A stretch of DNA of 64,000 nucleotides from Candidatus Saccharimonadota bacterium (GTDB taxonomy: Bacteria; Patescibacteriota; Saccharimonadia; Saccharimonadales; Saccharimonadaceae): assembly GCA_024699125.1 (NCBI GenBank), contig JAILQE010000012.1:1-64000 (forward strand), written 5' to 3'. A program made the translations under genes and the position numbers. Of this stretch, positions 12,961 through 61,823 are shown one piece after another. Every line of letters starts with the position of its first letter. Position 1 is the stretch's first letter. The notes beneath the pieces were generated by a model, which saw nothing but the letters and a program-made list of their open reading frames with translations, had not been told where the DNA came from and searched no databases.

Positions 12961-13920
12961 CTAGAATTTTGCGATTTTCTTAAGGCTTTTTTCCATTTTG
13001 GATTGTCTTTTACGATGACAAATAATTAGAATTATAGCCAGAGCAACCAGTAAGAGCAAAACAACAAACCATACTGGCACGATGATAATTTGTTTTTCGA
13101 TGACTTCAGACTTTCCAAGCACGCTTACGATAGCAGTTAAATGATAAATTCCGAACATCGGAGTATCAGGCCAATAGATTTCCATTTGACTTTGGTTTTC
13201 CGGAAAGATCATAGCGACCTTAGTGCTATCAAAAATTGTTTCTCCTGACGATGAGGTGACTTTAAGAGTTAGGTTTGGCTTTATGTCGACGTTGCCAATA
13301 TTTTCTACTGAAGCTCTTGCGAATACTTTTCCGCCCAGTACGATGTCAGAATTGGATTCTAAAGTAGTGATTTTTGCGTCATTAACGGTCTCTCCTGAGA
13401 CGTCGGCGAAGATCTTAACAGCAGTGCGGGAAACTGTGATAATGGAGCTTGATTCTTCGGAGTTGTCAGGTACAGTTTCGACAAAAATACACGCATGTTG
13501 GCTACCACCAGGAGCAGATTCTGGGACCGTTATGCGATAGTTGATAGTCTCAGCTTTGCCTGGCTCGATAGAAAAGTGGGCACTTTCAGCAAAGTCGAAG
13601 CTAGAAGTTTGGATTTTAATCCAATGATAGATTTGAGTATATTCAGACTGAGTTTCAAAATCCGAACCGCCAGTTTCTTTTATGATCGAATATGGAGCAG
13701 TATAAACTCGGATGTTAAGTTTTTGGTCTCCATGATTAGCGACACGAATAGATTTATCGGCTTGCGTACCCGGATTGAGCGAAAGCTCATCTATAACCGG
13801 CGCTACTTGCATTATAGGGCTATTTCCCGATTCCTTAGTATTTGCAAAAGTGGAAGTGGACGTTATGCTCAAAAAGATGACGCTTAGCAAGCCTGTCAAT
13901 ATAAAACCAAGTTTCTTCAT
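12961..13920 (-). CDS. DUF916/WxL-type surface protein
   Basis: 319 residues: signal peptide (cut near FAN at 27), two Ig-like beta domains, a span at about 280-301 and a basic cytoplasmic end (HRKRQSK). The first domain (LNPGTQADKSIRVANHG...) resembles DUF916, the peptidoglycan-binding part of WxL-system proteins. Its ATG directly follows the TAA of the 1,986-residue gene with no gap, so it is translated by coupling and probably helps anchor or present that protein. Confidence 0.7.
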   Translation of the reverse strand: MKKLGFILTGLLSVIFLSITSTSTFANTKESGNSPIMQVAPVIDELSLNPGTQADKSIRVANHGDQKLNIRVYTAPYSIIKETGGSDFETQSEYTQIYHWIKIQTSSFDFAESAHFSIEPGKAETINYRITVPESAPGGSQHACIFVETVPDNSEESSSIITVSRTAVKIFADVSGETVNDAKITTLESNSDIVLGGKVFARASVENIGNVDIKPNLTLKVTSSSGETIFDSTKVAMIFPENQSQMEIYWPDTPMFGIYHLTAIVSVLGKSEVIEKQIIIVPVWFVVLLLLVALAIILIICHRKRQSKMEKSLKKIAKF

Positions 13921-16900
13921 TTATCCCTCAGACTCATAGGTAATCATTGCGGTGCGGAAGTTGTTGATGAGTGCTGCATCTGCGGTCTTGTCGATCGAGC
14001 CATACATATACCAATCATAGACATTTTGGCCGGTTTCAAGAAAGGTCATCATATAGGTAAAGCGTTTAGTATTGCTACCTTCGTACTCGAAGTAGCGGTT
14101 GCGGTCGACGGCGCCGTAAAAGGTAGAGAGTTCGTAATCGCCTAGTCTAGCTTCGTCGGTCACGCCGAGTAAGCCCTCTAGCACCCAGGCAAGTGTACCA
14201 GTACGGTCAGAGCCATAAGAACAGTGGAGGTAGATATTATCACCGTTAATTACATTTTGCATGGCGCGAGTTACTACTGCACGCAGAGTATCATAATTCG
14301 AGGTATCAACACCTTGCTTGACCGCATACTGGACAACTGTATCGTTGCGGTAGCCAGCTAATCTGCTATCGGAGCTTCCCTCGCCAGGGCTTCTCACATC
14401 GATTTCGAAGTTGGCACCGAGATTAGTGAATTTGTCGGCGTTGGCACCGTTGGCGGTCCAGAGACGTTCAGCGCGGAAGATGCGACCATAGTTAGTGTAA
14501 CCATCAATTGTGCCATTGTAATCAGTATCAACTGGCAGACCACCGATTTCGCGGGTGTTGCGAGTGATTTGAGAACCACTAACTCTGCTATTGTCGCCTT
14601 GGGTAAAGTTCAGAATGCGGTGCTTACCGGTAGCTTTGACTAGGCCGTAAGTTGTTGGGTCGTCGGCTAATTCCCAATAGTAAGTCTTGCCCGGAATCAT
14701 GTTGTAAATGAGGCCATTTGTAGCTCCAGTGTAGGATAAAGCGTTACCGGTCTTTTGTTGGTTTGTGGTGTCATAGAGGTAGACATTGAGCGCACCAGTC
14801 TGACCAGTATCGTAAGCCCTAGACTGGTCACAGTAATTGGAGCCGTCGGTCCAGCCGTAAGCGACAGCTGAATCTAAATAGCCGTTATTGTCGCGATAAT
14901 TATAAATCTTACAGCCAGACTTTTCAAATGTCTCTCGCATGTTTGCTAGGAAGCTAGCCTTGGTTTTAGTCGCATCCCAAGCGTCACGACTATTATAGTA
15001 TATCTGAATTGGATCTGGAGTAATGTTGAATAGTGGGATGCCAGATTCACTGACGTAGACATTGTAGTAGGCTCTCTTGGCGCCGAGTACAGTGATAGTA
15101 GCCTCGCCTGGGTTAATGGCGGTAACTACACCATTGCTGTCAACGGTTGCAATTGAAGTATCGCTTGACTTGAATTGCACGGAAGATCCCATATCCATAC
15201 CTGTTAAGTCAATCGTAGCAGTGGAAGTACCACGAGTCTTCTCGAGATTAATTTCATGATATTCGTTCACTACTGGCACAATTGGATCCCAGATTGGATA
15301 GAGGGTGAGATTGGCGCTTGGCGTAAATATACTGCCTGCTGGGTAGCTAGCACCGGAGCCATCCGCAGCGGTATTCCACTCGGAAAGTACATATAGAGGC
15401 TTGACTGGTGTCGGCAAGGTAACCGTATCGATGCTGTCAAATGTGATTGTCAATCTGATGTTGGTCAAATCAATCTTTGAATTTCTGAATAGCTGGTTAC
15501 TCCCACTCAATCCAGCACCAAAGACGAGTGGTGAATCAAATGTATTGGCGAGATGATTGAAGTCTACGACAGATGTTTCGTTACTGTTTAGGTACATTGC
15601 ACCATTAACACGGCGGAGCCTGAATCCATCAGTGTTATTAATATTGTTGAGGGTATATTTGTCGGAATTTGTCGTTGAAGCATTTGCTACGAAGTTATAC
15701 TTAGTCACAGGGTTGGCAGACGAACCGTAGCGCACGACGAAACCTGGATAAGGTTGGCCAGCCTCGCTCATTGCGGTAACGATATTATTTATATTATCTG
15801 AATTCGTTACATAAGTAGCGGTACCCATATTAAGCGACAAATCAAAGTCCTTAGAGTTTAGAGCCGAGCTAAATAATTTAATATTCGTGTCGAGTGAGTT
15901 GGTGCCATCAAATGATTCATTGCCGAAGACATAAGTTAGGTCATGCTGGGTCACTTGAGTCCACCTTGCATAAAGCGTCATATCTGCCGTAAGTGTGACC
16001 GAAGCCTCATCGGCATATCGAGTGCCGCTACCATTGGCCTCCGTATTCCATCCGTCGAAAGTATAACCATTGATGACGTAGGCGTTAGGATTAAGATTCG
16101 TAGCTATATTCTCGACAATGCTTTGATTTGCCATTGTTCCAGTAGGAGTCGGCGCTCCAGTAGGTGCATTCGCGAGGAAAGTGACAGTATGAGTCGTAAC
16201 GGGAACATCGCTTAGCCAAACTGGGTAAAGTGTTATGTCATCATTTACCGTAACCGTATCTCCACCATTATAGGACGCGCCAGTATTATCGGCAGCGGTG
16301 TTCCAGTGCAGGAACGTGTCATTGGTCTTAGTTGGAGTCGGTAAAGTCACCGTAGTGCCATGATTATACTTAATCTTAAGAAGAATATCACTAACATCGA
16401 CGTCGGAATAGCGGAACGGCTGGCCGTTTTTAAGACCTGCACCGAATGTAAGTGGAGTGTCAAAAGTATTCGCCAAATTATTAAAATTAAGCACAGCTGT
16501 AGTATGATTATCATTCAAGTACAAATACCCACTAGTGCGTTCTAGCTTGAGCCCAACACTCAGTCCTGGGTTCGCATTTAATTTATCGCTTTGAGCTGTG
16601 GTGACATTACCATTTATATTATACGTATTGTTCTTATTGATATTGTCAGAGTTGAATCGCACTACAAACCCCGGCCATGGTGAGCCCGATTCGTCCATAG
16701 AGTTCGCCACATTATTAAAGTTTCCATCCTGGCCAGTTAGGAATGTTGGATTTGCCATGCCGAATGACAGAGTAAAATCATTGCTTATCAATTCTGAACT
16801 AAATAGCTTTATCTTTGTGTCGATGTAACCAGACCCGTCAAAAGATTCGTCGCCAAAGTCATAGTTGACATAATGCTGCAACACCTGTGTCCACTGTGCA

Positions 16901-19881
16901 TAGAGTATCAAATCAGCGGCGAGCGTGACCGACGCCCCATCGGCATATCGAGTGCTGCTACCGTTTGCAGCCGTATTCCAGCCATTAAACTCATATCCAC
17001 TGATGGCGAAACCATTTGGAGTCAGATTAGTAGCCACATTATCAGCGACGGTTTGATTTGCCATTGTGCCAGTAGGCGTAGGTGCGCCAGCCGGTGCATT
17101 AGCAAGAAAAGTCACGGTATGTGTTGCGCCTGGAGCTGTGCTTTGCCAAATTGGATAAAGCGTAAGACTTCTAGACAGTGTAACCGTAGCTCCACCGCTA
17201 TAATGAGCACCAGAGCCATCAGCGACAGTATCCCAATAGAGGAAAGTGTCGTTGGTCTTGGTCGGCGTTGGCAAGGTTACAGTATCGTTATATGCATAGT
17301 TAATCGTCAAAATGATATCAGTTAAAGTAGCATTGGAATAGCGCCAAGGAACATTACTTCCGCTAAGTCCAGCGCCAAAAACCAGTGGCGAATCAAATGT
17401 GCCAGCTAAATTATTATAATCAAGCACAGGGTTAGTGGTAGCGTTGTTGAAATATAATAGCCCGCTCCCTCTTCTTAATTGAACGCCAGACGTAACGGCA
17501 AATTGAGTGCCAGGATCATATTTTATGCTTCCCGTCGCATTCGCAATGATCTTATAGGTATCGTTTTTATCACTAGTGCTTCGGCGAATCACGAAACCCG
17601 GATAGGGATTACTTTCCTGCATAGCAGTCGCAAAGTTATTTAGATTGTTACTTTGACCACTTACGTTAGTCACATTGCTTATGGTGAATGATAGCATGAA
17701 ATCTTTATTGATTAGGCCCGTATCGAACAACTTAGTCTTTGTATCAATATAACTTGACCCATCAAAGACTTCAGTACCATAGTTATAAGTAACCGCATAA
17801 ACCATATTCCACTGTGCATAGAGCGTCACGTCTGCATTCGGCGTAATGCTAGCCCCATTGGCGTAAGACGTACCAGTGCCGTTGGCTGAGGTATTCCAGC
17901 CGGTAAAAGTATATCCAGGAAGCATAAAGGTATTAGGTCTCAAGGTGTCACTAGCGCCTGCAGCAATAGACATCGGTGCCATCGTACCCGTAGCTGTGCC
18001 AGCTCCGGCTGGTTCATTAGCTTGGAATGTAATCGTGCGATAGACAACGGCTTCGTCGCGAGAGATGCACCTCACTGGATAACCAAGATTACGTTTACTA
18101 TTGCTTGGCGCATTAACGGAAGTACTTGATTCATATAGCGTCTCTGCTTCGCTGCTGCTGTTGGCCGCACTAGTCCAAATACCACTACCTCGACCGCCAC
18201 GTGTCATTGGCCCCGTAGCTTCTGACGCATCGACGTAGCCGGCCCTAGTCATATAGAACGGAGCGGCCTCGAGCTTGGCGGAACTGTTTGTGATATTTTG
18301 ATTATTATTTAAGACAAAATTTAATCGTTTTACCTCATCATACGAGCCTTCATTCGTGTAATTTGGGCTAGCCGTTGTAGTAAGTGGTAATCGCCAACCA
18401 GCGGGGCAGATTGAGTTTTGAGGGTTATTAGCGATATTGGCGAGCGTTGAGGAACGGTAGCTAGAAGTATCATTCGACGCTACGGCAGCTGACCAGGTAT
18501 AATAATTACCCACATGGCCATGCACGCCATTGCCTGCAAATGGAGTCGTGCTAAAGAAAGACTGCCACAGGGCTGAAGAATGATCATCGTCGAGTAAATT
18601 GATTGCAGGAGAGTTTAGGGATGTCTGGAAGGTGTCGGTGTAATAATAATCTCCAGGGTCGAGAGAATAATTCGTAGTATAACTGTTAGATGCAGCCCAG
18701 TTGCTAGCAACCATCTCTTCTGCTGTAAGCGTAGCGCGTTCAGGAGTCCAAGTGATCACGTTGGTTGTGCTATCCTGCGAATAGCCTAGAGCATCTGTGT
18801 AGCCGTTAGCGTTGTATACATTGAGGTCGGTGTTTTCGGAAGTTAAGGCCGCGACTTTATTTGGTGTTGTCTCGATATCGAGATCGAGATTCTGCGTCAT
18901 CCAGCAGTGACCATCTGCCATCTTGGCAATCCAGTAGGTCTTGCCGTCACGAATATCAGTGAGTAACTCTGTATCACCAACCCCAAGATAAGGACAGCGC
19001 GCGTAGTTTTGAATAATATTTTGTGACCATTGCGCATAGAGCGTAATAGTCGTATTGACGGCGGTTAAATTAGTTACACTGGCGCCATCAGCGTAGCTCG
19101 CTCCAGAGCCATCAGCTGCTGTATTCCATCCCGTGAATGCGTATCCAGTAACCTCAAAAGTATTAGCCGTCAAAGGAGTAGGTACACCTTTGGTAATACT
19201 CTGGTTTTCCATTGTGCCAGTAGCGGTTGGCGCACCGCTAGGTTCATTAGCATCAAAGGCTACCGTATAATTAACACAAGTATTATCCATTTCCAGCGTA
19301 TACACAATGCGACCGTTATCTGCCATAGAATAAGTACCAGCCAACATAGAACCATCATACGAAGCGCCATAAGTTAGAGTGTGTGTATTATTCACACCAG
19401 GTGTGTAGTCACCCACACCAACATTAAACCATGCTACTGGAGTACTGCTAACCCCGGAATATAGATCGTTGTTAACTAATATACCCCATGTATCTGCACT
19501 AAGCATAGCGGGGGTACTTAATGTACCAGAAGAAGTGGTAAATTTGTTGGTGGTTTCCGAATCGTCTCCATCAAGATAGAGATTAAAATCACCGGTTTCA
19601 TTGTCGTTTATACCGTTAACTGAAATAATGTAGCCGTTTGGACAAGTAGTATTTGCCGTTATGGTGCTGCTAGCAGTACCAATGCCAGACGCACCAGCCA
19701 AATCGATGTTAACTGAACCTGCCCCAGATAACGAAGCAGAATAGGCATCTGCATATACGGAATTCTTATTAACAAAAATACTAAAAATAGATACTAGAAA
19801 AACAAAAAATAGCACACGAGTGGACGATAACCAACTTGAGTAATCGTGCTTGCCAAGACTAACGCTTTGCCATTTTTGCAT
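13921..19881 (-). CDS. Giant secreted repeat protein with C-terminal tyrosine phosphatase domain
   Basis: 1,986 residues. Order: hydrophobic export signal (about 20-45), N-terminal beta domain, B-repeat, FISUMP domain (DIRDGKTYWIAKMADGHCW ... CPAGWRLP), then alternating B-repeats (GWNTAADGSG type) and three LamG-like modules that each begin with FDGSSYIDT or similar, a BIG2-like domain (about 1,590-1,655), and a final 300 residues with tyrosine-phosphatase landmarks: TREIGG, GRIFRAERL, EIDVRSPGEG, and HCSYGSDRTG with Cys about 1887 and Arg about 1893. The last set matches the Y_phosphatase3 family (PF13350). No sortase motif or C-terminal span is present. Transcription probably starts from TTAAAAT at about 19916. 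Confidence 0.85.
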   Translation of the reverse strand: MQKWQSVSLGKHDYSSWLSSTRVLFFVFLVSIFSIFVNKNSVYADAYSASLSGAGSVNIDLAGASGIGTASSTITANTTCPNGYIISVNGINDNETGDFNLYLDGDDSETTNKFTTSSGTLSTPAMLSADTWGILVNNDLYSGVSSTPVAWFNVGVGDYTPGVNNTHTLTYGASYDGSMLAGTYSMADNGRIVYTLEMDNTCVNYTVAFDANEPSGAPTATGTMENQSITKGVPTPLTANTFEVTGYAFTGWNTAADGSGASYADGASVTNLTAVNTTITLYAQWSQNIIQNYARCPYLGVGDTELLTDIRDGKTYWIAKMADGHCWMTQNLDLDIETTPNKVAALTSENTDLNVYNANGYTDALGYSQDSTTNVITWTPERATLTAEEMVASNWAASNSYTTNYSLDPGDYYYTDTFQTSLNSPAINLLDDDHSSALWQSFFSTTPFAGNGVHGHVGNYYTWSAAVASNDTSSYRSSTLANIANNPQNSICPAGWRLPLTTTASPNYTNEGSYDEVKRLNFVLNNNQNITNSSAKLEAAPFYMTRAGYVDASEATGPMTRGGRGSGIWTSAANSSSEAETLYESSTSVNAPSNSKRNLGYPVRCISRDEAVVYRTITFQANEPAGAGTATGTMAPMSIAAGASDTLRPNTFMLPGYTFTGWNTSANGTGTSYANGASITPNADVTLYAQWNMVYAVTYNYGTEVFDGSSYIDTKTKLFDTGLINKDFMLSFTISNVTNVSGQSNNLNNFATAMQESNPYPGFVIRRSTSDKNDTYKIIANATGSIKYDPGTQFAVTSGVQLRRGSGLLYFNNATTNPVLDYNNLAGTFDSPLVFGAGLSGSNVPWRYSNATLTDIILTINYAYNDTVTLPTPTKTNDTFLYWDTVADGSGAHYSGGATVTLSRSLTLYPIWQSTAPGATHTVTFLANAPAGAPTPTGTMANQTVADNVATNLTPNGFAISGYEFNGWNTAANGSSTRYADGASVTLAADLILYAQWTQVLQHYVNYDFGDESFDGSGYIDTKIKLFSSELISNDFTLSFGMANPTFLTGQDGNFNNVANSMDESGSPWPGFVVRFNSDNINKNNTYNINGNVTTAQSDKLNANPGLSVGLKLERTSGYLYLNDNHTTAVLNFNNLANTFDTPLTFGAGLKNGQPFRYSDVDVSDILLKIKYNHGTTVTLPTPTKTNDTFLHWNTAADNTGASYNGGDTVTVNDDITLYPVWLSDVPVTTHTVTFLANAPTGAPTPTGTMANQSIVENIATNLNPNAYVINGYTFDGWNTEANGSGTRYADEASVTLTADMTLYARWTQVTQHDLTYVFGNESFDGTNSLDTNIKLFSSALNSKDFDLSLNMGTATYVTNSDNINNIVTAMSEAGQPYPGFVVRYGSSANPVTKYNFVANASTTNSDKYTLNNINNTDGFRLRRVNGAMYLNSNETSVVDFNHLANTFDSPLVFGAGLSGSNQLFRNSKIDLTNIRLTITFDSIDTVTLPTPVKPLYVLSEWNTAADGSGASYPAGSIFTPSANLTLYPIWDPIVPVVNEYHEINLEKTRGTSTATIDLTGMDMGSSVQFKSSDTSIATVDSNGVVTAINPGEATITVLGAKRAYYNVYVSESGIPLFNITPDPIQIYYNSRDAWDATKTKASFLANMRETFEKSGCKIYNYRDNNGYLDSAVAYGWTDGSNYCDQSRAYDTGQTGALNVYLYDTTNQQKTGNALSYTGATNGLIYNMIPGKTYYWELADDPTTYGLVKATGKHRILNFTQGDNSRVSGSQITRNTREIGGLPVDTDYNGTIDGYTNYGRIFRAERLWTANGANADKFTNLGANFEIDVRSPGEGSSDSRLAGYRNDTVVQYAVKQGVDTSNYDTLRAVVTRAMQNVINGDNIYLHCSYGSDRTGTLAWVLEGLLGVTDEARLGDYELSTFYGAVDRNRYFEYEGSNTKRFTYMMTFLETGQNVYDWYMYGSIDKTADAALINNFRTAMITYESEG

Positions 19882-20379: not shown

Positions 20380-20456
20380 TGGTGGATCTTACTGGGCTCG
20401 AACCAGTGACCTTACGAATGTGAATCGTACGCTCTAGCCAACTGAGCTAAAGATCC
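20380..20456 (-). tRNA. tRNA-Val (CAC)
   Basis: Cloverleaf on the minus strand: acceptor GGATCTT/AAGATCC, anticodon stem TACGA/TCGTA with loop TTCACAT (CAC), T arm CTGG-TTCGAG-CCAG, encoded CCA. Confidence 0.95.
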
Positions 20457-32714: not shown

Positions 32715-35700
32715 TTATTCGGTTATGCAGCGGATTGAGTATCCCTGAATCTTGTAATCCATGCCGTTGCCAGGAGTCAAATCTGAGACGTTTACACTAA
32801 AATCTCTAGTGAAGTTTGGGTTATTGCCGTATGTGCTCCAGAATATACCGCTCGAACCTTGTCCTACTGAACCTTCATTTTGGCTCATCATGCCCGATAG
32901 TGTGAAGTTGTATGGAGCCGAGCGGAACAAATTTGAAATATCTTTACCCTGTTCACCACCAACGTAGTTTGGCGCACTTCCATTGTTGTCTGGTAATCCC
33001 ATAGCGAGATATAAATCACCAAATTCGCCAGTGCTCTGACCAGTAGGCATGCGCCATCCAGATGGACAAAGGTCTCCGCTTACATTTGTTCCGCTGACCG
33101 ACTGAGTACCATTACCTGCTGTAGCAGTGTACCAGTTATAATAACTTCCATATCCATATCGCAATTCCGTATTCGTATTGTTTAGGTTCTTGATATTTTC
33201 GTTGTTGTGCTCAAGGCTATTTGTACATTCCTCATCGTACTCTTTACACCAATCAGATAATGACGCAGGATTCTGTACCACGGCTGTCAAGAATTCTGAA
33301 GTAGGATTATTGGTATTTGAGGCATTAATTTTGTCGCCATATTTCGACAGGTCAAGACGCAAGTTTTCGGTCATCCAGCATTTGCCATCGTCCAGTTTTG
33401 CTATCGTATACGTTTGACCATCACGCGTATCTGTTAGGGCCGTAACGGCTCCACTTGCCAAAGCGCTACAATCAAAGCCTTGTAGATTTCCGGTAGATTG
33501 GATCCATTGGGCATAGACTTTTAGTTTAGTACTTTCTGGAATTGGGACTGTTTCATTTGGTCCATACATTGTTCCACTACCATTTTTTTCGGTGTTCCAG
33601 CCTAGAAAACCATATCCTTCCTTCGCGAAGTTTGGCCCACTAAGTTGAATGTCTGCGGTTTCAAATGTCTGGATGCCCATCGCGCCAGTTCCACCGTTGG
33701 CTTTATACGATACTGAGTTATTTGGTTGGGCGAGAGTCCACTGTGCGTAGAGTGTTAGTGGCTCTTTTGATGATACTTCTCCGCCCATATTTTGCTCGTC
33801 ATCATATACATCACCTGTACCATCTTCATTTGTGGTCCAATGTGAGAATTCGTAACCTTCCTTTGTGAATTCGTTTGCTTTCAAAGTGTCTCCGTTCAGA
33901 GTAGATACGCTGACGTAAGCGCTCGTCATGGTGCCTTCGCCGCCATTCGCATTGTAACGGATGTAGCGAGAATTCTTCGGTGTGAAGTAGCCTGGCTTGC
34001 CGTTATCTGGATCGTCAATACGACCATATTCTGCTTCCAGATGACTATAGCTGTATCCCGTGTTTGCACCACCCTTTAGCTTGGTATCGAAGTACGGGGC
34101 GTAGCCGTTTGCGCTACTTAGATCTGTATTATCGTTTGCATAGATTGTTTCTAGGTTGCGCGCTTCATATACGAACCATCCCACATCTGTAACCTTTCTA
34201 GCGTCAAAGTGCGTGAGATCGATTTCTGTTATACCTGCTCCAGTGAAGACTCCATTAATACTTTTTACATTGCTAGTATTAAATGCTGTAATATCTAAGT
34301 TTGTTAGGCTATTTGTCCCCCTAAACATGTTTGCCATGGTCGTAACATTAGACGTATCAAAGTGCGACACATCTATGCTCGTAAGGCTCGTCATGCCAGC
34401 GAACAAACCCGACATGTCTTTGACGCTGCTCGTGTTAAAGTGCGTAACGTCTAGTGTCGTTAATGTCTTTACGTCGTTAAACATATTTGACATAGTCGTG
34501 ACGGCAGAGGTATTGAAGTGAGTGACATCGAGACTGGTAAGGGATTCACAACCTTTTTTGAATTGGTCACCACCAAACATTCCGGACATATTTGTAACCT
34601 TCTCGGTATTCCAGCCAGCAAGATTGAGCGTTGTGAGTCCAGTGCAGCCCTGGAACATCTGAGACATGTTTGTAACATTTCCAGTTTTCCATCCACCAAG
34701 ATCAAGTGAGGTTAGAGACTTACAACCTTCGCCGTTGTAGCTGAGGCCACCAAACATGTTAGCCATAGTTGTGACTTTTTCTGTATTCCAGTTTTTAATA
34801 TTTAGCGACGATAAGCTTGTACACCCGGCAAACATATTATTCATTTTCGTAACGTTGCCCGTATTCCATCCAGAAGCGTTTATTATCGCGAGTGATGAAC
34901 ACCCGGCGAACATGCTTTCGAAAGTCGTAGCAGCATCCGTACTAAGCGTTGTTCCGTCAATCGTCGTCAGACTACTACAACCATTGAACATGCTCGTCAT
35001 GTTTGTAACTGCGCTTGTATTCCAGTTATCTGTTTTAACTTCGACTAGATTCTTACACCCGAAGAACATATTCGACATATTTGTGACCGCGCTAGTGTTC
35101 CAGTTACTGAGATCTAATACGGTAAGGCTTTCATCGCCCTTCAAACCCCAGTCTGGCCTGCCGAACATTTGTGACATGTTCGTGACTTTGCTGGTGTCCC
35201 AGTTTGCAATACTGAGTGACTCAAGCGATGGACAGTTGCGGAACATGGCAGACATATTTGTAACGCGGCTAGTATTGAAGTGTGTAGTTTCTATTTCGGT
35301 CACGTCTACTAACGAATCGAACATTGCTGCCGAATTTGCGTTCAAATGAAATTCCTCAGCTTCTGTCCAATAATAAGCGGTCTCCGTGTTTTTGTCATAC
35401 CAACCATAAATTGGATAGTAGGATCCTTTAATGGATAGAGTTTCGTATGCAATGTTGTTAAGATCTGGCGCCGTGGTTGATTCTTTGATTTTTCTGATTG
35501 TATGGTCGGTAGTAACTAGGCCTTTCATTTTGCTATTAACCGTTGCGCCCGTATCAAATACGGCTGTCATTTCCGCCCATTCAGCATAGAGGTTGACTGT
35601 GCCAGTTACGCTAAGGTTTACAACTTCTTGTTCGTTGTCGTAGTGCTTACCTTTGCCGTCCTGCTTGGAATTCCAGCCCATGAATGCGTAGCCGTTGATA

Positions 35701-38700
35701 AAATACTGGTTGGCTGGTAGATTAAATCGGTCACCAAATTCCTTGGTTAGATCCTCCATTGTGCCATTTACAGTTTCTCCATCTGGTTCGTTACTATTAA
35801 AGATAATGGTATACGGCGTTTTGCCCCACTCGGCATATAGATCGAGCTTGCCGAAAGCGTCATCAAAGGTTTCTTCATCCGAGAAGTGTCTACCGCTTCC
35901 GTCCGGTTCAGTGTTCCAACCGCCAAATACACGGCCATATTGCTGCGTATTAACGGTATATTGGTTTGCATTAAGTGTAACCGTTGAGTTTGCCTGTAAG
36001 TTGAGTTGGCTTTGCATCGTGCCGCTTACTGGGCCTGTTTCTGCGCTTTCGTTTGAATGATAGAAGATGTTGAGCCTGTTCTTATCTGTGAAATAGCCAG
36101 GGTTCGTGGAACCACCATCAATGCGAGCATAGTCTTTATTGAGGTGTGCGCCATTATATGTTGTTCCCATACCGCCTACGATATCTATAGCTTGGCTAAA
36201 CAAGGATGCTGTTTCGCTTACGCCTGTCGTATTGAAGTTTTCGGAGGCGTATACTGTTTCTAATGCACTGCTTCTAAACATATCCGTCATAGACGTTGCG
36301 CTTGCGGTGTTAAATGAACTAATATCTACCATCTTTAATGCTGATGTGCTAAAGAACACGCCGGACATATTTCTTACACTCGAAACGTTAAAGCTATCAC
36401 CGAACGTAATACTTGTAAGTTTAGGTGTCACTTCGAACACGTAATCCATTGTTGTAAGATTGCCATGACCGAGCATAGATACGTCAATTGTCTCTAGGTT
36501 CGGACAACTAGCAAACATGTGGCTGATGTTTCCAAGTAGTGGAGCATTCCAGGCGCTCATATCTACCGTGACCACGCCCGATTTGCTAAACATATATGCA
36601 GTCGACGTTGCTTTGCTCACATCCATTTTCGAGACATTAATGTTTGTTAGTTTAGAGCAAGCATAGAACATATTCGCAAAGCTATTTACTTCTGAGGTCT
36701 TGAAATTTGTGATGTCAAGCGATTCTAAGCCAGAGCATCCTTCAAACATCGAAATCATTGATGTCACATTTTCCGTATTAAAGCTTGACAAGTTGAGCGA
36801 TGTTAGTGCACGACAATTTTTGAACATTGAATGCATGATAGTAACGTTTCCGGTATTAAATCCGCTTAGATCGATGTTTTGCAGCGCTACATCACCCGAG
36901 AATAGCCACGCCATATCTGTAGTGGCTGAAGTGTCGATATTTGAGACTTCTATCACCGTTGCGTTACTCAGGTTCGCAAACATGCTTCTTGCATCGCTAT
37001 TCATTGCAGGAACATTGTCTTCGCTCCAATAGTACAACGTGCCACCCTCCATCCAGGCATAAATCTTGTCCGGTGAAGAGAATGCAGAGATCACGTTTGC
37101 GCTCGTGAAATTACTTGTGTCTGGTACACCTACATATCTACGGACTGCCGTAATATTTGCCAGGTTACCGTCGGCCAATGCCTTCATGGTGTCATTTACG
37201 CCTACGCCAGTATTAAATATAGCTTCTACGTCGCGCCATTGAGCATATAAAGTTATGGTGCCATCAATGGCTACGTTTACTACGTCTACCTGATCGCCAT
37301 AGCTTTTACCGGAACCATCTGGCTCAGTGTTCCAACTTGCTAGTTTGTGGTCGTTGTAGGTGAATCCACAAGCTGGTAAGTTTACATGTTCACCATATTC
37401 TATGTTTTCAACTGGTAGCATTGTGCCGGTAGCATTTTCATTGTTTGCGTCAAATGCGATAGTGTATGGAGTTCTACCCCATTCAGCATAGAGTGTTACA
37501 ATTGCACCATCTTCATCGGTTAGGTTGGTTACGGATTGTTTATCATCATAGTGTATACCTGAACCATCTGCTTCGGTATTCCAGCCACCGTATTTAAATC
37601 CGGCTTCGTCGATTGTAAATTGGTTTTCGCCGAGCGCTTGACTTACGTTATATGTAAATTCTTGTTCCTCCATTGAGCCGCCAATGGTATGTGTACCTGG
37701 GTTCTTATCGAATGCTACAGTGTAGACGTTTGGTCTAAAGTTGGCAGTATAAGTTAGGTCACCGGTTATACCAACTGGCACCATGACAATGATTTGAGGC
37801 GTGCTGCCATTGTCGCCCGTCCAGCCGGTAAAGGTGTAGCCGGCGTGAGTTGGAACGTCTAGCGTGAAGCCGTTTTCTACGGTGTAGCTGGTTGGGTTAT
37901 GCATCAAGGCAAGTTCGTCTTCCGTGAGATCGTCTAGACCAGTGTAAGTGATGCCGTAAGATATAGTGCTCCAGTGTGCGGTATAGCTACAGGCGCCTTG
38001 GCTACCAACCGGGATGGTTACAGACATATTATTTTCGCCATCTAAACCAGTACCGCTCCAGCCGGTAAAGTTATAGCCTGCGCGGGTTGGGTTATTTAGC
38101 GTAATTTGGTCTTCGATAGTATAGCTACCTGGGTTATCTGCGGTGCCGCCGTTCAAATTGTAAGTGATTTCTTGTGGTGTAGCTTCCCAAACAGCATAGA
38201 AATTTACTGTCCAACCATTGTTAGTGCTCAAATTACTGACAGATTGGCCCAAATCATAATCTTTGGTGTTATTCGCGCTTTCAGTCAGGCTCCAGCCAAC
38301 TAGAGTGTAACCTTCGCGGGTGTAGCCAGTGCCATCGGAAAGATTAAATGTGTCACCATATTTAATATTACTTTGAGCCGTTGTGGCACCATTACCACCA
38401 TTATTATGATAATTGATGTGGTATTTTATTGGTCTCCAGATTACGTAGAAATCACAAATGTTGGTAGTAAGATCACAGTTTTGAGTGGTTGCAATTGCCT
38501 GGGTGTCTAGATATGTTAATCCCATATGGATTTCATTAAAATCTGGGACATTAGCTACGCCTGTTAGAGTGTAGCCTGGAGCATTATATCCGTAGCCATC
38601 CTGTGCAGGTAGTTGAATATCGTCGATAACTGTGTATTTGGTATCCAGATCAAAGTATTCTGGGCCAGTGATGCTGGAATTTGCTGGTGCGTTTTTGTGA

Positions 38701-41429
38701 ATTCTAACCGTAAACTCGGTAAGATCCCACATAGCATAAAGCGTAACTTCGTTATCTACTGGTTGGTTTAAGACATTTAATGCTGAACTTCCTGCATAAT
38801 AGATATTATTATCACCGTTACAGTTACGTGTGCTTGCCCAATATTTAAAGGTTGCGGTGCCTGCTATTATATCTGCTGGTTCATAGGTTGCCGTGGTTAC
38901 ATAATTATATTCGCCAGAAGGCTTCCTAAGTTCTACATCTTTAACATTAAATGCAGTGCCCCAGACTTCTTGTTGTGGATCACCCGGAATGAGGTTTGAG
39001 ATATACATCTCTGTTCCTTCCTCTTCTTCGTCGTACACCGTTAAGGCTGATTTGTAACACAAGCTGTCTGCGTAGTTCACCGTGTAGGCATGTCCTTCAT
39101 ATTTAGCGTAAAGATTGACTATGGCACCATTTTCCGTGGTTAGATTTATAATATCCGCGCCCGGAGCAATAGCTACGTCACCATTTTCTGTAAGTGCAAA
39201 GCCAATGAAGTTGTAGCCCGTGTTGGATGGATTGTATGAGTTTGGAATCGCAACATCGTAATACATAGGTTGATCTGCGATTTCGTCTGGGCTGGCACCA
39301 AGCATGAAGTGCAAGGTATATTGAATCGGATCAAAGTGCGCAGTATATTCACGTGCACCGTAAGAACTTTGTGTAATAGTTACAGTCATATTGTCTTCAC
39401 CTTCAAGTCCAGTGCCGCTCCAACCGGTAAAGATGTAGCCGATTTTGGTTGGATTGTTCAGAGTAAAGGTTGCAGTTTCTGGTGAATAGACCGTGTAATT
39501 ATTTGCGGTGCCACCGTCTAGGTTGTAGATAATATCATATGGAATTGAGCCCCATTGTGCGTAGAGGGTGGTTTCTTGATTATCTACGGTGGTGTAATTG
39601 TGAACACTGTTGCCTGGGGTGTATGCAGTACCTAGGCCATCAGCTTGAGTATTCCATCCGGTAAAGGCCCAGCCATCATGCGTGAAGCCATTATTCGGCA
39701 ATACATCTTCGCCGCTATTATCATCGTAGGCAAAGGTATAATTTGCCATGCTGCCTTGGCCGCCATTTGCATCAAAGACAAAGATAAAGTGAATTGGTGA
39801 CCAGTGGGCGGTGTAAGTTTTTGCTTCATATGGTTCAAACGCCACATCTACGCTCATGTTATTCTCGCCGGTGAGTTCGTTACCGCTCCAGCCGGTAAAG
39901 TTATAGCCTTCGCGTGTTGGATTGTTGAGGTGGATTGGGCCTGATTCGGCATTGTACGAATCTGGGTTGCCAGTTGCTGTGCCACCGTTTAGTACGTAGC
40001 TAATTCCAAAGTCAACAGTGCTCCACTGAGCTACGCAGGTGATGGTTTGATCTTTGTCGGTGGCGAGATTTGCAAAATTGGCACCAGCTGGGTAGTGTGA
40101 TCCATCACAAACCCAATCTATGAAGCTATATCCATCTTTAGTAAAGCCATTAAAAGCAAGCGTATCTGGGGTGTCAAAGGTGACGGTTTGATCTGCAACT
40201 TGGCCGCTCGTAGCGCCATTACCATCGTAGTGAATAGTATAGGTGCCGGCTTGCCAGTTAGCATTCAAAGTAACCGTTGCGCCGTCTACACTAGAGAGGT
40301 TTTTGATTGAATCGCCATCGTTGAAGCTTTCTGAAGCTAGGCTCCAATTCGTAAAACTGTAACCTGGGCGGGTGAATTGATTTAGTGGTAAAGTTTTGAT
40401 TTCGTCATAAGCCACCGTGATGTCTTCCATTGTACCAGTGGCAGTGTCTGCGTTTTTGTTGAATTTTACGGAGTAGTGAATTGGGGTGAATTTTGGAGTT
40501 AGATCGATATCGCCGGTGATTGGCGCGTTTGGATCATAATCATTGCCGTCGCCATCGGCGTAGCCGTCAAAAGTGTACCCTTCTGGTGCGTCTGGGGCTG
40601 GAATATCGCCACCTGGCTCACCGTAATCAATGGTTTTGTTGGCGGTGCCACTACCGGTTGGATAAGTGATATTCAGTTTGTTGTAAAAGCCGAGTTGGTT
40701 TTTGATTGTAATAGTGTCGCTAATTGTAGAAAGAGCGGTAAGAGGAGCTACGATAGAAAGTGCCAACGTAACAGCTAGCGTAATTCCGGCAGCTTTTTTG
40801 TGTTTCTTTACATAAAATGCGATTGCGATAATAACGCCAATAAGGAGAACCAAAAATGGAAAGATCGGCACCGCTTTGCTGCCGTCTTTTTCGGTGGAAC
40901 CGGTGTTTGGAATAGCGGTATCGTCGTAGGTGTTTGGCACCACGATGACTTCTTCCTCCTCAACGTTTCCAGACTCATCCTCGTATGAAATCGTGATTAC
41001 TACATCGGCCTTTTGATCGCGGTTGGTAATGTCTTCGACTGTAGTTTTGTAGATAGTCTTTAATACGAAGTCAAAGGATTCGCCTTCGGCCACAGTTGCT
41101 TCAAAATCCTCATTATATTCGTACGCGAGGTAAGGATTTTCGCTTGTAGCCGAGATTTTTATAATCTTATAAGTCTTGGAATCGGAGTTTAGAAGCCCAA
41201 GCTTATAGGTCACGTACTCGTTTAGAGCGTGATATTCGACCCTTGTTGATACTTCCGTATCGTTAAAGTTGATAATTTCAGCCTCTGTTTGTGGAGACTT
41301 CTCCGTAATTTCGGCTGATGTTAGTTTAAAGGTGTTGCCACTGGCGCCTGCTATGCGAATCGCGGTTATTGCACCGAAAAACGCAAAAAAGATGCCAAAT
41401 AAAACACCTAATTTACCTCGCTTTTTCAC
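32715..41429 (-). CDS. 2,904-residue surface protein: B-repeats, DUF285 repeats, FISUMP
   Basis: Signal-like span at 7-27, an N-terminal beta module (about 30-168), IPNTG at 173-177, a span (about 189-207), KKHKK, and a second signal-like span (215-233) ending at an ALS cut-like site. Then about fifteen InlB-type B-repeats (GYxFTGW...LYAxW), two blocks of BspA/DUF285 repeats (FNTSxVTxMSxMFxGC type) separated by B-repeats, two or three more B-repeats, and a C-terminal FISUMP domain (DTRDGQTYTIAKLDDGKCW ... CPSGWRMP). Start GTG 41429 with AAAGGAG upstream. Likely an adhesin on the cell surface; no C-terminal anchor is seen, so anchoring may come from the two N-terminal spans. Confidence 0.85.
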   Translation of the reverse strand: MKKRGKLGVLFGIFFAFFGAITAIRIAGASGNTFKLTSAEITEKSPQTEAEIINFNDTEVSTRVEYHALNEYVTYKLGLLNSDSKTYKIIKISATSENPYLAYEYNEDFEATVAEGESFDFVLKTIYKTTVEDITNRDQKADVVITISYEDESGNVEEEEVIVVPNTYDDTAIPNTGSTEKDGSKAVPIFPFLVLLIGVIIAIAFYVKKHKKAAGITLAVTLALSIVAPLTALSTISDTITIKNQLGFYNKLNITYPTGSGTANKTIDYGEPGGDIPAPDAPEGYTFDGYADGDGNDYDPNAPITGDIDLTPKFTPIHYSVKFNKNADTATGTMEDITVAYDEIKTLPLNQFTRPGYSFTNWSLASESFNDGDSIKNLSSVDGATVTLNANWQAGTYTIHYDGNGATSGQVADQTVTFDTPDTLAFNGFTKDGYSFIDWVCDGSHYPAGANFANLATDKDQTITCVAQWSTVDFGISYVLNGGTATGNPDSYNAESGPIHLNNPTREGYNFTGWSGNELTGENNMSVDVAFEPYEAKTYTAHWSPIHFIFVFDANGGQGSMANYTFAYDDNSGEDVLPNNGFTHDGWAFTGWNTQADGLGTAYTPGNSVHNYTTVDNQETTLYAQWGSIPYDIIYNLDGGTANNYTVYSPETATFTLNNPTKIGYIFTGWSGTGLEGEDNMTVTITQSSYGAREYTAHFDPIQYTLHFMLGASPDEIADQPMYYDVAIPNSYNPSNTGYNFIGFALTENGDVAIAPGADIINLTTENGAIVNLYAKYEGHAYTVNYADSLCYKSALTVYDEEEEGTEMYISNLIPGDPQQEVWGTAFNVKDVELRKPSGEYNYVTTATYEPADIIAGTATFKYWASTRNCNGDNNIYYAGSSALNVLNQPVDNEVTLYAMWDLTEFTVRIHKNAPANSSITGPEYFDLDTKYTVIDDIQLPAQDGYGYNAPGYTLTGVANVPDFNEIHMGLTYLDTQAIATTQNCDLTTNICDFYVIWRPIKYHINYHNNGGNGATTAQSNIKYGDTFNLSDGTGYTREGYTLVGWSLTESANNTKDYDLGQSVSNLSTNNGWTVNFYAVWEATPQEITYNLNGGTADNPGSYTIEDQITLNNPTRAGYNFTGWSGTGLDGENNMSVTIPVGSQGACSYTAHWSTISYGITYTGLDDLTEDELALMHNPTSYTVENGFTLDVPTHAGYTFTGWTGDNGSTPQIIVMVPVGITGDLTYTANFRPNVYTVAFDKNPGTHTIGGSMEEQEFTYNVSQALGENQFTIDEAGFKYGGWNTEADGSGIHYDDKQSVTNLTDEDGAIVTLYAEWGRTPYTIAFDANNENATGTMLPVENIEYGEHVNLPACGFTYNDHKLASWNTEPDGSGKSYGDQVDVVNVAIDGTITLYAQWRDVEAIFNTGVGVNDTMKALADGNLANITAVRRYVGVPDTSNFTSANVISAFSSPDKIYAWMEGGTLYYWSEDNVPAMNSDARSMFANLSNATVIEVSNIDTSATTDMAWLFSGDVALQNIDLSGFNTGNVTIMHSMFKNCRALTSLNLSSFNTENVTSMISMFEGCSGLESLDITNFKTSEVNSFANMFYACSKLTNINVSKMDVSKATSTAYMFSKSGVVTVDMSAWNAPLLGNISHMFASCPNLETIDVSMLGHGNLTTMDYVFEVTPKLTSITFGDSFNVSSVRNMSGVFFSTSALKMVDISSFNTASATSMTDMFRSSALETVYASENFNTTGVSETASLFSQAIDIVGGMGTTYNGAHLNKDYARIDGGSTNPGYFTDKNRLNIFYHSNESAETGPVSGTMQSQLNLQANSTVTLNANQYTVNTQQYGRVFGGWNTEPDGSGRHFSDEETFDDAFGKLDLYAEWGKTPYTIIFNSNEPDGETVNGTMEDLTKEFGDRFNLPANQYFINGYAFMGWNSKQDGKGKHYDNEQEVVNLSVTGTVNLYAEWAEMTAVFDTGATVNSKMKGLVTTDHTIRKIKESTTAPDLNNIAYETLSIKGSYYPIYGWYDKNTETAYYWTEAEEFHLNANSAAMFDSLVDVTEIETTHFNTSRVTNMSAMFRNCPSLESLSIANWDTSKVTNMSQMFGRPDWGLKGDESLTVLDLSNWNTSAVTNMSNMFFGCKNLVEVKTDNWNTSAVTNMTSMFNGCSSLTTIDGTTLSTDAATTFESMFAGCSSLAIINASGWNTGNVTKMNNMFAGCTSLSSLNIKNWNTEKVTTMANMFGGLSYNGEGCKSLTSLDLGGWKTGNVTNMSQMFQGCTGLTTLNLAGWNTEKVTNMSGMFGGDQFKKGCESLTSLDVTHFNTSAVTTMSNMFNDVKTLTTLDVTHFNTSSVKDMSGLFAGMTSLTSIDVSHFDTSNVTTMANMFRGTNSLTNLDITAFNTSNVKSINGVFTGAGITEIDLTHFDARKVTDVGWFVYEARNLETIYANDNTDLSSANGYAPYFDTKLKGGANTGYSYSHLEAEYGRIDDPDNGKPGYFTPKNSRYIRYNANGGEGTMTSAYVSVSTLNGDTLKANEFTKEGYEFSHWTTNEDGTGDVYDDEQNMGGEVSSKEPLTLYAQWTLAQPNNSVSYKANGGTGAMGIQTFETADIQLSGPNFAKEGYGFLGWNTEKNGSGTMYGPNETVPIPESTKLKVYAQWIQSTGNLQGFDCSALASGAVTALTDTRDGQTYTIAKLDDGKCWMTENLRLDLSKYGDKINASNTNNPTSEFLTAVVQNPASLSDWCKEYDEECTNSLEHNNENIKNLNNTNTELRYGYGSYYNWYTATAGNGTQSVSGTNVSGDLCPSGWRMPTGQSTGEFGDLYLAMGLPDNNGSAPNYVGGEQGKDISNLFRSAPYNFTLSGMMSQNEGSVGQGSSGIFWSTYGNNPNFTRDFSVNVSDLTPGNGMDYKIQGYSIRCITE

Positions 41430-61109: not shown

Positions 61110-61823
61110 TTACTCGTTTACGATAACCGCTCTTAGGAACTGCCTTGAAAGGTAAGTTTTTTGCTTGTCAGACCACTCGCCGGTGCAAGTGATAATAGTT
61201 ACGGATTCTTTGCCTGGCTCTGGGGATTGCTGTGCGGTGCGCATATAGGCATCTGCTTCAGATAGTAAAACAGATTTGTTTTCTACGACTTTGTACTTAA
61301 AAATAGTGCCGTCACCACGCTCGATCTCGATGATATCGCCTTCGGCTACCGCTGGGAGATTCTTAAAAATCCCGATTTTGCTTGGGCCACCATTGTGGCC
61401 GTCAATTAAGAGAGTGCCGCCTTGGCCTGGTTTGCCTGAGCCACCGTACCAACCGGCATCAAAAATATTAGCCGGGGTGCCAAGCTCGCCGCTCGCTTTT
61501 ACCCACACGGTAATCACGCGGGCTTTATAAACGCCAATTTTGGAGATTGTAAGATAGCGTGGTTGGTCGGCTGGGACAGTGTATTCGCGAACTTCTGGCT
61601 CGGTAGGCTCGGTTTCGTCAACTTCTTCGATAGTCTTCTCGACGCTGCTCACGCCTTCGACTTGGGCACGCTCAGAGCCTTCTTTTTCGTTATAATACTG
61701 AGCCTCAAAAACTGATGTTTTAATGATAAAAATCAACAGTAAGAGCCCAATAATGCCCCAAATTACGTAAGGGATGAACTTTTTCCAATTATTTATCTTC
61801 AGGTTCGTCATTGCTGTAGTCAT
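61110..61823 (-). CDS. Sortase
   Basis: 237 residues (or 233 from the second ATG, 61811). One N-terminal span (about 16-36), an acidic linker (about 58-82), then the sortase barrel: His143 in LIDGHNGG, Cys213 in ITCTG and Arg227 in LSRQFLRA. It overlaps the secY end by 35 bases, in the place where adk and map usually sit. A second sortase lies at 50085. Likely substrates are LPXTG-like proteins such as the IPNTG protein. Confidence 0.85.
   Translation of the reverse strand: MTTAMTNLKINNWKKFIPYVIWGIIGLLLLIFIIKTSVFEAQYYNEKEGSERAQVEGVSSVEKTIEEVDETEPTEPEVREYTVPADQPRYLTISKIGVYKARVITVWVKASGELGTPANIFDAGWYGGSGKPGQGGTLLIDGHNGGPSKIGIFKNLPAVAEGDIIEIERGDGTIFKYKVVENKSVLLSEADAYMRTAQQSPEPGKESVTIITCTGEWSDKQKTYLSRQFLRAVIVNE

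Follow-up and report, generated by a model that had tools for sequence, protein, structure and literature searches.

On the reverse strand of the window, the 64,000-nucleotide stretch of DNA that was analysed, positions 13921-19881 form an uninterrupted open reading frame for a giant protein of 1986 aa, with no internal stops. The stretch belongs to a gut Saccharibacteria genome of 765 kb that is 98.8% complete. The relatives of the protein and the size of the genome are the grounds for placing it in Saccharibacteria. A tRNA gene (20383-20456) lies on the same strand just upstream. The features of the protein and its downstream neighbour are listed below, with (-) for the reverse strand and the basis of each assignment in brackets.

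13921-19881 (-): giant repeat protein, 1986 aa, predicted to be exported, with a C-terminal phosphatase (ORF with Pfam/NCBIfam domains)
19750-19881 (-): putative signal peptide, aa 1-44, h-region aa 17-39, candidate cleavage between VYA and DA (hydropathy; cleavage site by eye)
19030-19269 (-): InlB B-repeat 1 (PF09479)
18058-19008 (-): FISUMP domain region, about aa 292-608 (TIGR02145, best stretch aa 456-607)
17812-18036 (-): InlB B-repeat 2 (PF09479)
17302-17793, 16375-16893 and 15445-15966 (-): three repeated domains of ~160-170 aa with FDGxxxIDTxxKLF, LamG-like by eye (sequence only)
17155-17301 (-): InlB B-repeat 3 (PF09479)
16894-17121 (-): InlB B-repeat 4 (PF09479)
16225-16374 (-): InlB B-repeat 5 (PF09479)
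15967-16191 (-): InlB B-repeat 6 (PF09479)
15298-15444 (-): InlB B-repeat 7 (PF09479)
15085-15192 (-): BIG2 domain, aa 1564-1599 matched (PF02368, over cut-off)
14572-15054 (-): beta-rich domain with two conserved Cys (C1657, C1684), ahead of the phosphatase (alignment of relatives)
13924-14565 (-): Y_phosphatase3 domain, aa 1773-1986 (PF13350, predicted model and Foldseek)
14539-14556 (-): TREIGG, the RxxGG motif (motif and alignment)
14197-14226 (-): P-loop HCSYGSDRTG, with Cys1887 as nucleophile, Asp1892 as likely general acid and Arg1893 for phosphate binding (motif and alignment)
12961-13920 (-): 319-aa membrane protein directly after the phosphatase gene, weakly like WxL-interacting proteins (PF06030, under cut-off)

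The original prediction, made from the letters of this stretch, described an exported protein with B-repeats, FISUMP, LamG-like and BIG2-like domains that ends in a Y_phosphatase3 domain. Most of this list was recovered by profile searches of the window protein. B-repeats were over the Pfam cut-off in seven stretches (E 7e-55), as was Big_2 (27.5 bits versus a cut-off of 22.8). FISUMP was over the curated NCBIfam cut-off (51.9 versus 41.65 bits) and its Pfam counterpart, PF09603, was under cut-off (21.4 versus 33.9 bits). The LamG-like assignment was not recovered, with no Pfam match at E<=1. Export also agrees with the sequence: the single hydrophobic segment, aa 17-39, has a basic n-region and is followed by SVYA and then DA, a plausible cleavable signal peptide as judged by hydropathy alone, without a dedicated signal-peptide predictor. 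In the explanation that we prefer, the B-repeat, FISUMP, LamG-like and BIG2 part would reach out from the cell as a long stalk that carries putative binding modules.

The phosphatase domain and its P-loop

PF13350 matched aa 1773-1930 with 57.3 bits (E 2.9e-15), well over the gathering cut-off of 22.2, and the window copy scored 61 bits in the genome search. All four motifs on which the Y_phosphatase3 assignment had been based are present: TREIGG at aa 1776, GRIFRAERL at 1799, EIDVRSPGEG at 1826 and HCSYGSDRTG at 1886. The last 387 residues were aligned with 43 relatives that share 33-56% identity with the window protein. Across these 44 sequences, R1777, G1780, G1781, R1803, H1886, C1887, G1890, D1892 and R1893 are invariant. 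An AlphaFold2 model built from this alignment is confident (mean pLDDT 90, pTM 0.90). In a Foldseek search with this model, two solved structures came out on top, 8dhi, a C. difficile PTP (E 9e-9), and 1ywf, PtpB of M. tuberculosis (E about 1.8e-7); TM-scores by target were modest (0.45-0.56). The same two entries ranked first in a profile-sequence search of the PDB (2e-10 and 1.7e-6). A single-sequence query returned designed repeat proteins, which are chance matches; relatives were found with profiles only.

The predicted model thus has a cysteine-phosphatase fold with a CX5R P-loop. The original prediction hinged on a Cys-Arg pocket, and a structure lacking one is not indicated, because the model matches 8dhi and 1ywf and the residues are invariant despite 33-56% identity. 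Taken together, the alignment and the structure prediction argue that the motifs are more than chance and that the domain is likely to be catalytically intact.

The second motif, DxR, has decayed in many relatives: D1828 is kept in 31 of 44 sequences and R1830 in 24, which could reflect altered catalysis or substrate. The P-loop is a variant. PtpB-like atypical lipid phosphatases of the MptpB/LipA type are defined by HCXXGKDR, in which both Lys and Asp are strictly conserved, the Lys as an aid to phosphoinositide binding and the Asp for catalysis (PMC3091653). In window-type proteins the P-loop reads HCxxG[A/S/T]DR; the Asp is present and the Lys is replaced by Ala, Ser or Thr in 57 of 57 domains. 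The window protein thus belongs to PF13350 but lacks the P-loop that defines the lipid-phosphatase subfamily, and because of this replacement phosphoinositides are unlikely to be its preferred substrate. A catalytically dead binding domain would fit both the absent Lys and the change of D1828/R1830 to N-G in many relatives. However, the P-loop residues Cys, Asp and Arg are the same in all 44 aligned sequences, and we consider a pseudophosphatase improbable.

In the case of a working phosphatase, which we prefer, the catalytic unit would comprise the PF13350 domain and the two-Cys beta-domain. Cys1887 would attack the phosphate and Arg1893 would hold it, while Asp1892 in the P-loop would act as general acid, as for MptpB and myotubularins (PMC3091653). 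Phosphoproteins or small extracellular phosphate esters at the envelope would be more likely substrates than phosphoinositides. The beta-domain, which comprises the ~160 residues that precede the phosphatase, always accompanies it in the family. Every one of the 43 sequences that span the beta-domain has its two Cys, as would fit an extracellular disulfide. A fold search with the beta-domain alone gave no significant PDB match.

Copies in the genome and distribution among relatives

Three phosphatase-bearing giant proteins are encoded in the genome: the window copy, a copy on contig C12 with 93% identity to it across the part of the phosphatase region that was aligned, and a divergent one on contig C10 whose P-loop is HCSAGSDRAG. 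They are among about nine giant B-repeat open frames (823-2910 aa). Another giant protein in the window (32715-41429, 2904 aa) has 14 B-repeats, DUF285/BspA-type LRR and a C-terminal FISUMP domain.

Comparison of the window and C12 copies separates the two ends of the protein. In the stalk, protein identity is about 32-80% and silent sites are saturated or nearly so, whereas from aa 1540 onward identity is 92-96%, dS is 0.33-0.82 and dN/dS is 0.04-0.20 (0.04 in the beta-domain, 0.20 in the phosphatase). The stalks diversify and the enzyme end is kept, under purifying selection. For this one gene pair dS is lower at the enzyme end than across the stalk, which points to gene conversion or replacement there in addition to purifying selection.

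PF13350 matches were found in 40 of 393 sampled genomes of the class, most of them from the genus of the window or a few genera close to it, and six of the 36 sampled same-genus genomes carry the window-type protein. In a phylum-wide sample, strong matches to the two-domain unit were confined to the window's own genome and one other of its family. A scan of 84,980 species genomes gave 62 loci with 54 full relatives, all from MAG loci, of which 36 are labelled Saccharibacteria and 18 Bacilli, Erysipelotrichaceae, Bacillales, Firmicutes or Clostridium. The layout of B-repeats, beta-domain and phosphatase is common to Saccharibacteria and Bacilli, in most cases with Big_2. One 2550-aa relative (L069, 2301-9950) has a DUF285 repeat array after the phosphatase domain, which is therefore not terminal.

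The Bacilli genomes with the window-type phosphatase are small (0.9-1.7 Mb), and in one Bacilli order the full unit occurs in seven of 241 sampled genomes. Mis-binning of these MAG loci was considered, but their GC content (26-32% versus 45% in the window) and Firmicutes-type neighbours (FtsH, a SipW-like peptidase and a LysM amidase, with TilS and MraY recognised by eye) argue against it. At five loci (L022, L028, L054, L066 and L067) the genes directly upstream of the phosphatase encode a SipW-like signal peptidase together with small proteins that are TasA/camelysin-like as judged by eye, which suggests that the Bacilli copies are exported with a fibre system. In the tree, most Bacilli form one clade, four sit beside Saccharibacteria and one Saccharibacterium falls among Bacilli. 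These three label changes would allow several separate transfers, yet a single Bacilli clade is not rejected (AU test, p 0.37), so only one transfer is claimed, and at least one between the phyla is needed. Viral contigs gave 37 pattern hits, of which none encodes a relative, plasmids gave no match to the phosphatase domain, and INPHARED phages gave no more than a weak stalk-repeat match.

Nearly all hosts named in the locus records point to the ruminant digestive tract. Plant phosphate esters are plentiful there, and the protein, which unrelated inhabitants of this gut have in common, could scavenge extracellular phosphate from phytate, nucleotides or sugar phosphates. Pho16B, a secreted PF13350 enzyme, has phytase activity (PMC6409689). 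However, the P-loop of Pho16B has the canonical Lys that the window-type family lacks, the window protein has no Pfam match to the PTP-like phytase family at E<=1, and a 1500-aa stalk would be superfluous for such a task. We regard scavenging in a plant-fed gut as doubtful, about as likely as action at a host surface.

Membrane topology and proposed function

The window copy reaches its C-terminus directly after the phosphatase domain and has no C-terminal anchor; its sole membrane signal is the signal peptide. Past the phosphatase, about two dozen Saccharibacteria relatives have an Asn/Ser-rich linker and a conserved [Y/F/H]xxPLGV-like motif, followed 20-35 aa later by an Ala/Gly-rich membrane helix and a short charged tail (L016, L023, L024, L031, L035-L037, L039-L041, L043, L044, L047-L050, L053, L056, L057, L059-L062 and L065). 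The motif and helix look like an unrecognised anchoring or sorting signal distinct from the LPXTG sortase anchor, which was not seen anywhere in the phosphatase family. Even so, the genome has two sortase-family (PF04203) genes, at 61110-61823 of the window and at G000:C4:14157-14558.

For the window copy, the 319-aa membrane protein is a candidate partner. The two genes meet at TAA followed by ATG with zero gap, with GAGG upstream. The protein scored 18.8 bits with the WxL-interacting family PF06030, under the cut-off of 27.3. Because its relatives adjoin the phosphatase gene elsewhere (L010, L031/L012 and L036), we infer that it may hold the window phosphatase at the surface.

These observations also bear on the last idea of the original prediction, that the domain acts at the surface of a host. 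Saccharibacteria are known mainly as episymbionts. In a narrower form of the explanation that we prefer, the stalk would bind a microbial host or neighbour and the phosphatase would modify the partner's surface phosphoproteins or phosphoglycans. B-repeats and FISUMP are typical surface-protein modules, diversification affects the stalks and spares the enzyme end, and the C10 paralogue, L020 and L032 have two N-terminal membrane helices that would put the phosphatase at the free outer end. However, a C-terminal helix right after the phosphatase, as in the two dozen relatives, would place the enzyme next to the producer's own membrane with the stalk pointing outward. Bacilli have the protein too, which speaks against a tie to episymbiosis, and few genomes of the window's own genus carry it. 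Action at a host surface is therefore not established; it is possible but weakened, and a contact enzyme of this kind is somewhat unlikely.

An enzymatic domain at the end of a giant exported repeat protein could also be the effector of a polymorphic-toxin-like protein, and the domain has a weak similarity to the Tc-R-P polymorphic toxin DSP-PTPase (PF22785, 14.1 bits, under the cut-off of 27). Yet the family has the same terminal domain everywhere with no swapping, many homologues run on into a membrane anchor, and the next gene encodes the membrane protein weakly like WxL-interacting proteins rather than one of immunity type. A toxin effector is very improbable.

The explanation that we prefer, and hold with reasonable confidence, is that the locus encodes a Sec-exported, surface-associated cysteine phosphatase on a modular stalk, with the membrane protein encoded next to it perhaps retaining the window copy. 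Taken singly, the family of the catalytic domain, the B-repeats and FISUMP are not new. In the open-licence literature searched, no report was found of their combination, the P-loop signature, three copies in a 765-kb genome or the sharing between Saccharibacteria and Bacilli, and no paper on Saccharibacteria tyrosine phosphatases was found. To our knowledge, very little is known about the surface molecules of Saccharibacteria and their roles. A reduced genome here spends three giant genes on an enzyme, predicted to be exported, whose catalytic end is conserved and which unrelated small-genome Bacilli of the same habitat also have. A more speculative reading, to which we give little weight, is that horizontally shared extracellular phosphatases on fast-diversifying, adhesin-like stalks let reduced-genome gut bacteria of two phyla edit phosphates on the surfaces of the cells they touch. 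If true, this would be the first reported case of an episymbiont with a system for removing phosphate outside the cell. The sharing of the gene offers a hint as to which microbes are in physical contact, and since a 390-residue fragment suffices for study, the extracellular phosphate target is a concrete biochemical question.

Comparison with known phosphatases

Among PF13350 proteins, the PtpB-like MptpB and Listeria Lmo1800 share with the window protein the fold, the RxxGG and DxR motifs and HCxxGxDR[TA]G with its catalytic Asp, and several members of their group are secreted, as is predicted here. The window protein differs from them in its P-loop, which has Ala, Ser or Thr in place of Lys, in its giant repeat stalk and in the extra two-Cys beta-domain; identity is 15-17% in structural alignments. 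Of the solved structures, the C. difficile PTP (8dhi/8dhj) comes closest in both the sequence-profile and the fold search but, unlike the window protein, it has 249 residues, no stalk and the canonical HCTAGKDRTG.

Myotubularins (HCSDGWDR) resemble the window P-loop in using its Asp as general acid with no Lys at the position in question (PMC3091653). They are eukaryotic intracellular lipid phosphatases, compared here at the P-loop. Within the same bacterial class, stand-alone PF13350 proteins (L078-L084, mostly ~370 aa) have the canonical HCxxGKDRT, and in the tree a long branch (SH-aLRT 100) sets them apart as a distant clade. They carry an N-terminal membrane region and represent a second, distantly related phosphatase line.

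Stand-alone proteins with both domains also occur in gut bacteria and phages. A Prevotellaceae protein (L071, 402 aa, HCISGADRTG) joins a beta-domain to a PTP with an A-type P-loop as in the window family and has an N-terminal hydrophobic, signal-like stretch; it has no B-repeat stalk and is distant from the window protein (30% identity). Predicted phage proteins of ~600 aa match the beta-domain and phosphatase jointly (BFVD A0A8S5V632, 598 aa; TMq 0.63, E 9e-20). Because the phage proteins match both domains and L071 has a related layout, the two-domain unit was probably a free-standing enzyme first and was fused to B-repeat stalks later.
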